Assembly (NCBI RefSeq): GCF_024385505.1
Contig: NZ_JANFLT010000002.1
Coordinates: forward strand, 62,001-126,000
Direction: 5' to 3'
Source of the DNA: Arthrobacter zhaoxinii
GTDB lineage: Bacteria > Actinomycetota > Actinomycetes > Actinomycetales > Micrococcaceae
Length of the DNA: 64,000 bases
Position numbers and translations under genes: made by a program. This document shows positions 16,365 to 39,022 of the stretch, piece by piece. The notes beneath the pieces are model-generated. The model saw only the letters and a program-made list of their open reading frames with translations. It had not been told where the DNA came from and did not search any database. Within the stretch, counting starts at the first letter, position 1. Each line of letters begins with the position of its first letter.

Positions 16365-16550
16365 CCCGGCGTTTAGGGCACCGGCAATGCGGCACTTACC
16401 GTTTTCGCGGACAATGACAGACATTCTGCACTCGCACGGCGTAAATGGTGGCTGATTTGTTGCCACGATGCTTGTTTACATTCCAGCCTGTCCGCCACGG
16501 CATTCCACCCGCGTCCCGGCTGGCCGCTTATACCCAAGTGGACCTGTAAT

Positions 16551-16577
16551 GTTTGCTGTGACTCCGCTCATGGTATT
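16551..16577 (+). promoter_or_regulatory. Possible SigB-type promoter (GTTTGC-N15-GGTATT)
   Basis: GTTTGC at 16551 and GGTATT at 16572 with a 15-base spacer resemble the GTTT...GGGTAT pattern of actinobacterial stress sigma factors. It lies 37 bases before the RsbQ-like gene. One mismatch in the -10 makes this a weak call. Confidence 0.3.
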
Positions 16578-16613
16578 GCGGGCACGGCATAAGAAAAGCA
16601 GGCGTACAGGTAA

Positions 16614-17429
16614 ATGAAGACTGATATCCGCACCCGGAACAACGTTCAAGTGCTGGGACGAGCGGACGGACCCGTGCTGCTTTTCGCCCATGGATTCGGT
16701 TGCGACCAGGGAATGTGGTCGCGGGTACTGCCCCGCTTCACCGATGACTACAAAGTGGTCCTCTTCGACCATGTAGGGGCAGGCGGTTCCAACCTGGATG
16801 CGTATACCCCGGCTAAGTACTCCACCCTGGACGGCTACGTGGCCGACGTCCTGGAACTGTGCGAGGACCTGGACCTGCAGGACGTCACCTTCATTGGTCA
16901 CAGCGTCAGCGCCATGATGGCCATCGCGGCCGGTGCCACCGCGGCCGAGCGTCTTGCCCGGATCATCCTGGTTGCCCCTTCGCCCAGCTACATGGACTAT
17001 CCCGAGGACGGCTACGTGGGCGGCTTCAGCAGGGCCGATCTGGATGAACTCCTCGAATCCCTGGACACCAATTACCTGGTCTGGGCCGCCACCATGGCCC
17101 CGGTAATCATGGGCAACCCCGCCGCACCGGCCCTGGGCACCGAACTCGAAGGCAGCTTCTGTCGGGTCAACCCTGGCATTGCCCGGCAGTTCGCCCGCGT
17201 GGCGTTCCTGACCGACGTGCGGAGCCTCCTGCCCAAGGTGGCCGTGCCCTCACTCATCATGCAGGCTTCAGCGGACCTTCTGGCCCCGGACCATGTGGGC
17301 CGCTACCTGCAGGAGCACCTCCCGCAGAGCACCCTGGTGCAGATGAAGGCCACCGGGCATCTCCCCCACGTCAGTGCACCGGAGGAGACCGCGGACATCA
17401 TCCTCGGTTACCTGCAGCAATCCAAGTAG
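16614..17429 (+). CDS. rsbQ: RsbQ/KAI2-like alpha/beta hydrolase
   Basis: 271 residues. The catalytic triad is visible as Ser97 in GHSVSAMM, Asp221 in SADLL and His249 in TGHL. Spacing and wording closely follow Bacillus RsbQ (Ser96, Asp219, His247), and the family includes the plant karrikin and strigolactone receptors D14/KAI2. In Bacillus, RsbQ works with the PAS-containing phosphatase RsbP to report energy stress. Here the next gene, 7 bases on, is a PAS histidine kinase. The hydrolase probably makes or senses a small hydrophobic ligand for its PAS domain (inference). There is no signal peptide, so it is cytoplasmic. AGG sits close to the ATG. Confidence 0.85.
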   Translation: MKTDIRTRNNVQVLGRADGPVLLFAHGFGCDQGMWSRVLPRFTDDYKVVLFDHVGAGGSNLDAYTPAKYSTLDGYVADVLELCEDLDLQDVTFIGHSVSAMMAIAAGATAAERLARIILVAPSPSYMDYPEDGYVGGFSRADLDELLESLDTNYLVWAATMAPVIMGNPAAPALGTELEGSFCRVNPGIARQFARVAFLTDVRSLLPKVAVPSLIMQASADLLAPDHVGRYLQEHLPQSTLVQMKATGHLPHVSAPEETADIILGYLQQSK

Positions 17430-17436
17430 GCCGACC

Positions 17437-18999
17437 GTGGACCTGGATTTCCAGCTCGACTACCGCGCCCTGTCCCAGTCCGCTCCGTCGGGGTATTTCG
17501 TCACCCTGGCGGACGGTACGGTGGTGGACGCCAACGGCACGGCACTAAGGTGGATCGGCAAGAGCCTGGAAGAGGTCCGAGGCACCAGCCTGTTGAAGCT
17601 TCTGCCCGTGGGCGACCGGATTGTGTACACCACCCATGCAATGCCTCAGTTACAGCTGAACTCGGCGTTCGCCGAACTCGCTGTCGACCTCCTGGGGCCG
17701 GACGGCCAGCGCATCCCGGTCCTGCTTTCCGCGACCCGTTCCCCCGCCGCAGACGGGCGGCCGGTCCTCGACCAGGTGGTTGCGTTCTACGCCCACGAGC
17801 GCCGGCTGTATGAGCGGGACCTGATTTCCGCTCTGCGCACCGCCGAGGACGCCGAGGCCGCCCGTGCCGAGGCGGAAGCCAGCCTCACCGCGCAGGCAGT
17901 GGTGCTGCAGGAAAAGGACGTGGTGCTACAGGCCTCGCTGCTCGAGAGCCTCCGGAAGGAGTCGATGCTCGAGACCATCCTGAATACGGTTCGGGTAGGC
18001 GTGGTGGTTATTGGCGAGGACGGCCGGCGCATCCTGACCAATTCCCACCAGATCCTCCACGAACGCCTGGCCCGGCCTACCTACACCATCAATCCAACCG
18101 AAGCCGAGATGCTGATCTTCGGTCCGGACCGAACCACCCCGGTCCCCAGGGACCAGCGCCCGGTGTACCGCGCAGCCCAGGGCCACTCCTTCTCGGACCA
18201 GCTGGTCTGGTACGGGAACGGCGAGGAACAAAAGGCACTGAGTGTTTCGGCCCGGTCCGTCAAGGGCGACGACGACGCCTTCCGCGGCTCCGTGATCGCC
18301 TACAGCGACGTCACCGGTCTGGTAAACGCCGTGGCGGCGAAGGACGACTTCGTGGCCAATGTGTCCCACGAGCTGCGCACGCCGCTGACTTCGATCATGG
18401 GCTATCTGGAACTGGCTCTGGATGAAGAAGACGCCATCCCGGCCTACGTTGCGTCCTCGCTGAAGGTGGCACAGCGGAATTCCGAGAAGCTCCTGCACCT
18501 GGTCTCGGACCTGCTGAGCGCCGCGGCCGGATCCGCCAATGTCCAGCAGGAACGCACCGATCTCAGCGAACTGGTCCGCGCCGGCATCACCTCCGCCGCC
18601 CCCCGCGCCGAAATCAACGCGGTGACCATTGTCGCCGAGGTCCCCGAAACCCTGCCGGCCATGGTGGATCCCAAGCGCATCTCCCAGGTACTGGACAACC
18701 TGCTTTCCAACGCGGTGAAGTACTCGCCCGACGGCGGCCGGGTCACGGTCAGCGCGTGGCGCAGCGAGGACGGGGCGACCGTTCTTCAAGTGGCGGACTC
18801 CGGGATCGGCATGACCGCGGCCGAACAGTCCGAGGTCTTCACCAAGTTCTTCCGCTCGGGTACCGCGCGCCGGGCCCAGATCCCCGGCGTCGGGCTGGGC
18901 CTGGTCATCACCAAACGCATTGTGGAGGAACACGGCGGCACCATCACCATGCAGAGCAAGGCCGGCAAGGGCACTGTCTTTACGGTCACACTGCCCTGA
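17437..18999 (+). CDS. PAS sensor histidine kinase, partner of the RsbQ-like hydrolase
   Basis: 520 residues from a GTG start 7 bases after the RsbQ stop. The first PAS domain (about 10-115) contains the IVYTTHAMPQLQ...IPVLLSAT wording usual in PAS domains of RsbP/RsbU-type phosphatases. An alanine/glutamate-rich coiled coil (about 125-175) leads to a second, weaker PAS (180-295). A HisKA domain has phospho-acceptor His311 in NVSHELRTPL, and an HATPase_c domain (about 400-520) has N, G1 (DSGIGM) and G2 (GVGLGL) boxes. There is no transmembrane segment, so it is a soluble sensor. No response regulator is adjacent; the partner is unknown. Confidence 0.9.
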   Translation: MDLDFQLDYRALSQSAPSGYFVTLADGTVVDANGTALRWIGKSLEEVRGTSLLKLLPVGDRIVYTTHAMPQLQLNSAFAELAVDLLGPDGQRIPVLLSATRSPAADGRPVLDQVVAFYAHERRLYERDLISALRTAEDAEAARAEAEASLTAQAVVLQEKDVVLQASLLESLRKESMLETILNTVRVGVVVIGEDGRRILTNSHQILHERLARPTYTINPTEAEMLIFGPDRTTPVPRDQRPVYRAAQGHSFSDQLVWYGNGEEQKALSVSARSVKGDDDAFRGSVIAYSDVTGLVNAVAAKDDFVANVSHELRTPLTSIMGYLELALDEEDAIPAYVASSLKVAQRNSEKLLHLVSDLLSAAAGSANVQQERTDLSELVRAGITSAAPRAEINAVTIVAEVPETLPAMVDPKRISQVLDNLLSNAVKYSPDGGRVTVSAWRSEDGATVLQVADSGIGMTAAEQSEVFTKFFRSGTARRAQIPGVGLGLVITKRIVEEHGGTITMQSKAGKGTVFTVTLP

Positions 19000-23583: not shown

Positions 23584-23953
23584 TGGTGGAGATGGGGGGA
23601 ATCGAACCCCCGTCCGGTGCTGTATTGCCAGGGCTTCTCCGGGCGCAGTATGCGTCGGATTTTCTCGGCCCCGGCCATCGTGCATACGAGTGGCTGATCC
23701 GGGCCCAGCCGTCAAAATGTCCCGAACACTCCGACGGCGGAAGTGTTCAGCAGTGGCCCTCTAAACGACGCCAGCATCCGGAGCGAGAGCAACTCCGGGC
23801 TGACGGACTACTCCGGCTGCTTAGGCAGCGAGAGCGAAGTCAGTGCGCATAGGTTTGGCACTTATTGTTTTGCAGAGAGCGTTAACGAGATAACTCTGCG
23901 TTCTCGGCCCGCTTCCCCTGGCTCAACAAACATCGTCGAAACCGATCATCCCC
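23584..23953 (-). ncRNA. ssrA: Transfer-messenger RNA
   Basis: About 370 bases. The 5' end reads GGGGAUGAUCGGUUUCGAC and the 3' end carries the T-arm GGGGGUUCGAUUCCCCCC and an encoded CCA, together forming the Ala-tRNA-like domain. The messenger part ends GAC UUC GCU CUC GCU GCC UAA. Taking GCC as resume codon, the proteolysis tag is AKPMRTDFALAA; the last six residues are certain, the start of the tag is inferred. It rescues stalled ribosomes with SmpB, whose gene is not in the window. The G3:U70-type wobble pair supports alanine charging. Confidence 0.97.
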
Positions 23954-38949: not shown

Positions 38950-39022
38950 TGGAGCTTAGGGGAATCGAACCCCTGACCTTTTCATTGCGAACGAAACGCT
39001 CTACCAACTGAGCTAAAGCCCC
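38950..39022 (-). tRNA. tRNA-Ala (anticodon CGC)
   Basis: 73 bases, all four arms pair. The anticodon loop is UUCGCAA, giving anticodon CGC (codon GCG). The acceptor stem GGGGCUU/AAGCUCC contains the G3:U70 wobble pair that identifies alanine tRNAs, with A73 as discriminator. CCA is not encoded. Confidence 0.97.

Follow-up and report, generated by a model that had tools for sequence, protein, structure and literature searches.

A genus-wide RsbQ-PAS pair with a probably chimeric histidine kinase in Arthrobacter, and its candidate response regulator

Background

The alpha/beta hydrolase RsbQ of Bacillus subtilis acts with RsbP, in which a PAS domain is joined through a helical linker to a PP2C phosphatase that releases sigma-B. 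Nadezhdin, Brody and Price (2011, PMC3183031) collected 45 adjacent pairs of RsbQ and an RsbP-type PAS protein, whose output is a PP2C, a histidine kinase or a diguanylate cyclase, and called the combination a bipartite sensing module; in the parts of that paper available to us, kinase outputs are reported in Gram-negative bacteria only. Thus, the idea of an RsbQ-linked kinase is not new. Here, we describe a pair of this kind, an rsbQ gene followed by a gene for a PAS histidine kinase, in a 64,000-nucleotide stretch of Arthrobacter zhaoxinii DNA (contig NZ_JANFLT010000002.1, positions 62,001 to 126,000; hereafter the window). We give a probability of about two in three to the reading that an RsbQ-PAS bipartite sensor drives this kinase, that the kinase is a chimera, and that its output is most likely the OmpR-type response regulator encoded at C6:552301-553116 of the same genome. 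The pair had been pointed out in a first-pass annotation of this DNA and is confirmed; its principle was known, and what is new is a genus-wide, separately derived actinobacterial variant. A literature search on RsbQ and actinobacteria found no actinobacterial RsbQ-kinase pair in titles or abstract openings, most subscription papers lying outside its scope.

The RsbQ-kinase pair and its conservation

B. subtilis RsbQ (1wom) matches the window hydrolase with 271.5 bits (phmmer, E 7.8e-80, over residues 3-268). Of the 195 distinct PDB sequences with a match it scores best; the plant receptors KAI2 and D14, sequence relatives of RsbQ that sense small molecules, come lower. In contrast to these receptors, the RsbQ here is paired with a bacterial PAS kinase. 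The residues Ser97, Asp221 and His249 line up with the RsbQ catalytic triad, as the first-pass annotation had claimed, and by these alignments the protein is a true RsbQ homologue with its triad intact. The kinase starts at a GTG seven bases past the rsbQ stop codon, and a methionine stands at that place in some close relatives (L006, L007, L012). Pfam recognizes PAS (residues 8-108), HisKA (301-361) and HATPase_c (411-520) domains in it, and a hydropathy scan of the protein found no transmembrane segment. The earlier description of a soluble kinase just behind the hydrolase, with an RsbP-type PAS domain wired to a HisKA/HATPase_c transmitter and not to a PP2C phosphatase, is therefore borne out.

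Judging from the loci compared, the pairing is conserved in the genus far beyond chance. RsbQ is present in 28 of 29 genomes of Arthrobacter in the wide sense, at 44 loci in total, comprising 26 of the window type, 17 of a second type considered below and one other (L032). A PAS kinase comes next after RsbQ in 43 of the 44 (26/26 window-type and 17/17 second-type loci, L032 being the exception), so the pair passes the test of conservation set for it by the first-pass annotation, which had also called for a tabulation of the domains downstream of RsbQ. Outside the genus, GGDEF and PP2C outputs dominate. GGDEF follows RsbQ in 10 of 13 loci from other genera of the family (13 of the 16 non-genus matches were read), with no partner in the remaining three; the 23 loci of the order, taken from a longer list, divide into 12 GGDEF and 11 PP2C; and the 26 of the phylum sample are made up of 19 PP2C, 2 kinases, 1 GGDEF and 4 others. 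For the best 80 of at least 579 named loci, the output is PP2C in 50, a kinase in 13 (two of which belong to the genus and are included above), GGDEF in 7 and something else in 10. These counts come from a table of 174 rows, in which L004 repeats L002 and several loci recur among the named ones, and the output classes were assigned by phmmer with seeds out of the same loci, not by a Pfam scan of each protein. The kinase loci L089, L095, L174 and L211 indicate that this output also occurs in a few other actinobacteria.

Some loci stand apart. L032 (G014) has a triad-intact RsbQ without a PAS partner, adjoined by frames that read as flavodoxin-like and superoxide-dismutase-like. In other genera of the family, the RsbQ genes of L041, L043 and L046 form one clade and have no PAS or output partner downstream within the stretch examined. 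L153, whose record bears the title Vibrio cholerae strain 35D, has an RsbQ 63% identical to that of the window beside a GGDEF gene; this may reflect a mistaken title or contamination. A search of viral contigs with PAS1 gave no relative.

Architecture of the kinase

A single-chain AlphaFold2 model of the kinase, made with 17 related sequences, has a mean predicted local distance difference test score (pLDDT) of 75.4 and a predicted template modelling score (pTM) of 0.36, a value low enough to make the placement of the domains unreliable. In the model, the strands of PAS1 lie within residues 19-118 and are followed by one helix of 65 residues (120-184). Residues 187-291 then form a PAS-like domain, 293-363 a helical hairpin and 372-519 an ATP-binding domain. 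The Pfam scan gave no match at PAS2 of the window kinase; it finds PAS_4 at this place in the paralogue C2_320. PAS1 (8-108) terminates in FYAHERR, without a DIT motif. The spacing between PAS1 and PAS2 is 63 residues in the window kinase and in 24 of 25 relatives, and 42 in one. The difference is exactly 21 residues, or three heptads, which fits the expectation for a coiled coil; the linker of the published RsbQ-PAS module is a coiled coil of at least 21 residues, to be compared with the 65-residue helix and the spacings of 63 or 42 found here.

Ten positions of PAS1 were compared, the nine of PMC3183031 and Pro62, with the numbering mapped by our own count from the text of that paper. The window PAS1 keeps Leu48, a basic residue (Arg) at 53, His59, Pro62, Glu72 and Pro86, has Tyr at 56, and departs from the signature at Cys10 (Ser in the window), Leu13 (Phe) and the aromatic position 55 (Val). 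These last three are given in the available part of the paper as a 75% consensus, not as absolute. Positions 48, 53, 59, 72 and 86 are invariant in 26/26 window-type kinases. Position 55 is Val or Leu in the genus kinases, Leu (19), Met (7) or Phe (3) in 29 GGDEF rows, and aromatic, His counted, in 80/80 PP2C rows and 13/13 other kinase rows.

The genome also encodes a third PAS1-bearing kinase of the same family, C2:320165 (L119:3665-5305, minus strand), which has no RsbQ neighbour. Positions 53, 55, 59, 62 and 72 are all changed in it (five of the ten compared), and these joint changes fit a need of those positions for RsbQ. The support is weak, because some of the positions also vary among RsbQ-paired proteins: at 53, for instance, 8 of 17 second-type kinases have Gln in place of the basic residue.

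The locus shares with the module of Nadezhdin et al. an rsbQ gene directly upstream, an RsbP-type PAS domain in the most N-terminal place, a PAS1 that ends without a DIT motif, a linker predicted here to be a long helix, and a kinase output, and extra PAS domains are present in five of their proteins. It differs in being actinobacterial and of separate origin, in its transmitter, and in lacking Cys10, Leu13 and the aromatic residue at 55. With the B. subtilis RsbQ-RsbP system it has in common an RsbQ homologue with the triad, a PAS domain and a linker predicted to be helical, but the output is HisKA/HATPase_c instead of PP2C.

Separate origin and two-part ancestry

In the RsbQ tree, the RsbQs of the genus cluster with GGDEF-linked RsbQs of the same family, and the kinase-linked RsbQs of Bacteroidota, Noviherbaspirillum and cyanobacteria lie away from them. 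A single origin of all RsbQ-kinase pairs was rejected by the approximately unbiased (AU) test (p 0.0002; 39 chosen rows with 17 kinase-linked RsbQs, the tested group having been named after the first tree was seen). By this phylogeny, the actinobacterial RsbQ-kinase version arose independently of the Gram-negative one.

The kinase resembles different proteins along its length. Residues 1-146 are 54% identical to GGDEF-type modules of the family, and no membrane kinase was matched there. Residues 160-296 find matches in only one kinase family, at 41-49%, and residues 297-520 reach 54-61% to the same family of membrane kinases; elsewhere, a hybrid kinase from this genome matches this last part at 45%, and the best core from another RsbQ-kinase pair at 37%. 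The BLAST regions meet near residue 150 (medians 150 and 151.5; ends 131-203, starts 144-174), a junction that falls inside the predicted 65-residue helix. Such matches indicate that the kinase is probably chimeric, with residues 1 to about 150 derived from an RsbQ-PAS-GGDEF-like module and the rest from a resident membrane kinase family. It has been proposed that sensor modules can be swapped among PP2C, GGDEF and kinase outputs at helical linkers, through exchangeable coiled coils (eLife 2025, PMC12143880). The chimera fits this toolkit; the work itself, in its accessible part, deals with RsbU/RsbT and PP2C dimers and mentions no RsbQ kinase from actinobacteria.

A candidate response regulator

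The genome totals 14 receiver domains and 10 HisKA kinases. As the first-pass annotation had remarked, no receiver domain adjoins the pair; the only one found on the contig is about 27 kb off and of NarL type by reading. The kinase's own family points to the missing regulator, the OmpR-type protein C6:552301. Five kinases of the genome have a common core. Besides the window kinase, they are the partner of the second RsbQ, the RsbQ-less PAS kinase C2:320165, and C6:550985 and C6:556038, both of which have hydrophobic, probably transmembrane N-termini. These four are 46-53% identical to the window kinase, and the two membrane kinases 51-53% over 372-376 residues, compared with 31-34% for three other orthodox kinases. 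In the core tree, the window kinase and the membrane kinases fall in the same group of 56 rows, with a support of 96 in the SH-like approximate likelihood-ratio test (SH-aLRT) and long-branch warnings among the outgroups.

The regulator has one match per genome at E <= 1e-60 in 29/29 genus genomes, full length in 28 and reduced to the receiver half in G023. Its gene is divergent from the kinase most like C6:550985 in all 29 (a 60-base overlap being allowed), and a second membrane kinase is convergent on its other side in 12. In a longer family list, a family kinase stands beside the regulator in 30/30 best-scoring loci, 6 of the genus and 24 from outside it. We also compared five HisKA positions reported to govern partner choice in work on EnvZ and HK853. 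They read T-S-G-Y-L in 25/25 relatives of the window kinase and in 17/17 second-type kinases. Among the 23 of the 30 regulator-linked kinases in which they were counted, shorter pieces having been dropped, T, S, G and Y are each present in 22, and 17 have L as the fifth residue. These positions are different in the three other orthodox kinases compared.

On this family linkage, the window kinase most likely phosphorylates the OmpR-type regulator. It could instead signal to another receiver (NarL-type, MtrA, PhoP-like and so on), as might be expected when no regulator adjoins the kinase and the genome offers 14 receiver domains; given how much closer its core is to the four members of the family linked to C6:552301 than to the three other kinases, we regard this as unlikely.

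Signalling from RsbQ through the kinase to the OmpR-type regulator would proceed as follows. RsbQ would bind a hydrophobic metabolite, perhaps a lactone-like one as the first-pass annotation had suggested, which the window copy probably can hydrolyse, and would dock on PAS1 of the kinase. The change would travel along the continuous helix, as a coiled coil, to PAS2 and on to the HisKA-HATPase transmitter, altering, in one direction or the other, the autokinase or phosphatase activity. The kinase itself probably arose when the input half of a local RsbQ-PAS-GGDEF module became fused, within the helix, to the PAS2-transmitter half of the membrane kinase family, and up to five paralogous kinases would have the regulator as their common node.

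Several points weigh against this scheme. The window kinase is encoded apart from the regulator gene, and it may have switched partner; in the core tree, the RsbQ-linked kinases are neighbours of the regulator-linked clade and lie outside it. The partner-choice residues T-S-G-Y-L are also found in the hybrid kinase C6:84133, whose core is 45% identical. Under a stricter rule only 13/29 regulator loci counted as divergent, since reading frames taken from stop to stop run over the regulator start. On the input side, the window PAS1 lacks an aromatic residue at the position of RsbP Phe55, whose change to Ala inhibited RsbQ binding in B. subtilis (PMC3183031, available part), and the signature varies among true RsbQ partners, Glu72 being Gly in 50/80 PP2C rows. 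Finally, the pTM of the kinase model is 0.36.

C6:84133 (L111:2639-4366) is a kinase with a receiver-like N-terminus.

The sigma-B route and the region upstream of rsbQ

In the RsbQP pathway of sigma-B, a PP2C phosphatase acts on RsbV; the output that Pfam identifies here is HisKA/HATPase_c. The pair could still feed a general stress pathway of this kind through a response regulator bearing a PP2C domain or through partner switching. The genome has a SigB/F/G-like sigma factor (C2:336813, which at 201.7 bits falls short of the family's cut-off, 234.35), and in Mycobacterium smegmatis the two-component system RsfSR acts on SigF (PMC10950880, in the part available). Against this, the two SpoIIE matches in the genome are both PstP-like PP2Cs by eye, not RsbU or RsbP, and neither is co-located with a receiver domain. 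Nor is a stand-alone RsbW evident among the nine PF13581 matches, of which the strongest is a kinase by reading, six fall on known kinases and two weak ones are unread. With no phosphatase of the RsbU/RsbP type and no evident RsbW found in the genome, partner switching is disfavoured as the output, and we consider the whole sigma-B route very improbable.

The first-pass annotation had also likened an element upstream of rsbQ, GTTTGC-N15-GGTATT, to stress-sigma promoters. The element exists, but its conservation does not follow that assignment: across 12 aligned loci, the window counted, GTTTGC is exact in 8 and GGTATT in only 2, which likewise counts against the sigma-B route. A longer block (CCTGTAAtGTTTGC...) is kept better than its surroundings in the same loci, and the promoter was set aside as evidence. 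By its conservation, this block is not a sigma-B promoter. A fuzzy search of the window found it only at rsbQ, and it had no match in 19 other loci of the same genome or in 16 second-copy loci.

A second RsbQ without the catalytic histidine

The second RsbQ of the genome, with its own PAS kinase, has Ser in place of the catalytic His. Among 179 distinct RsbQ sequences, Ser97, Asp221 and His249 are all present in 163/163 outside the second-type clade. Within this clade (n=16), the catalytic His at 249 is gone in 15/16, replaced by Asn (11 sequences), Ser (3) or Thr (1), and remains in a single sequence; Ser97 is replaced by Thr in 2, and the other core positions checked are mostly conserved. 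At position 26, Gln is found in 16/16, compared with His in 162/162 others with a letter there, a change that is less telling because B. subtilis RsbQ has Pro at this position. The lone His-bearing member, L232, lies inside the clade with weak support, so that the His may have been lost several times, or once and later regained. The ratio of non-synonymous to synonymous substitution rates (dN/dS) is 0.19-0.26 in five second-type pairs, and 0.06-0.19 in five window-type pairs with dS >0.2 (0.5 in one near-identical pair). Second-type rsbQ genes thus look to be under purifying selection, somewhat looser than that on the window type.

By analogy with plant GID1, another branch of the fold, the second-type RsbQs are candidates for natural receptor-only members. 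GID1 has lost the catalytic His and acts only as a receptor, a likeness that concerns the second-copy clade alone, and the Asp218Ala form of D14, without activity, still complements the mutant (PMC10191409, the accessible part of a review). Loss of the His under purifying selection favours, for the second copy, the receptor role proposed as Model 2 by Nadezhdin et al. In their Model 1, catalysis is essential, as RsbQ hands its product to PAS1, the real sensor. Triad substitutions abolish signalling in B. subtilis (PMC3183031, available part), and the triad is intact in the window RsbQ as in every distinct sequence outside the second-copy clade; that clade, however, keeps its RsbQ-kinase operons and its selective constraint with the His gone, and we view Model 1 as possible, at somewhat less than even odds. 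The second-copy proteins might also still be enzymes that use a migrated base such as His252, present in 16/16 of the clade and variable elsewhere (His 62, Gln 60, Asn 40 of 163). This seems doubtful: the triad-intact window RsbQ carries His252 too, beside His249, and the mixture of Asn, Ser and Thr at 249 suggests a free position and not a new base.

Beside one His-less RsbQ, the second-type kinase L242:900-2441 (G016) has degenerate-looking ATP-binding motifs and is possibly decaying or kinase-dead.

Coordinates of the features

Table 1. Positions of the pair, its parts and associated elements; plain numbers are positions in the window.
Feature	Location	Strand	Basis or remark
Conserved upstream block CCTGTAAtGTTTGCTGtGACTCCGCT, function unassigned	16543..16568	+	Alignment of 12 loci
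GTTTGC-N15-GGTATT element	16551..16577	+	GGTATT half not conserved
RsbQ-type alpha/beta hydrolase, 271 residues	16614..17429	+	phmmer 271.5 bits to 1wom; triad in alignments
Triad codons: Ser97, Asp221, His249	16902-16904, 17274-17276, 17358-17360	+	
Soluble PAS histidine kinase, 520 residues, GTG start	17437..18999	+	Pfam; relatives share start position
PAS1, RsbP type, residues 1-118, predicted RsbQ-contacting domain	17437..17790	+	Pfam PAS 8-108; signature positions; AlphaFold2
Linker, one predicted helix, residues 120-184	17794..17988	+	AlphaFold2; chimera join near residue 150 (about 17884)
PAS2, residues 187-291, DIT-like motif (DVT) at end	17995..18309	+	PAS element order in AlphaFold2
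HisKA dimerisation/phosphoacceptor domain	18337..18519	+	PF00512, 59.8 bits
HATPase_c catalytic domain	18667..18996	+	PF02518, 101.5 bits
Second RsbQ of the genome, Ser at catalytic His	G000:C2:242305-243081 (L004:9291-10109)	-	Followed by own PAS kinase, L004:7675-9291
OmpR-type regulator	G000:C6:552301-553116		Response_reg and Trans_reg_C; divergent from C6:550985

Elsewhere in the window, a tmRNA and a tRNA lie on the minus strand at 23584-23953 and 38950-39022.

Implications

The value of the locus lies in a named candidate regulator, a clear chimera and a His-less twin. The work on B. subtilis left open what RsbQ senses and whether hydrolysis is needed, and the question is likewise debated for the plant strigolactone receptors. 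With one RsbQ that keeps the triad and one that lacks the His, both paired with a kinase of their own, a single genome allows the receptor and product models to be set against each other. The chimera would be a natural example of a sensor swapped between outputs at a helical linker, and the candidate regulator offers an experimental route to the regulon and the signal. More tentatively, and as a view that we think less likely than not, RsbQ may have given up hydrolysis in this genus and become purely a ligand receptor for histidine kinases, in parallel with GID1, with the His-less copy signalling by binding alone, and both pairs, the RsbQ-less paralogue and the two membrane kinases converging on one OmpR-type regulator. 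If so, Arthrobacter would possess a many-to-one network, its soluble sensors, which resemble hormone receptors, and its membrane sensors all acting through a single common output.

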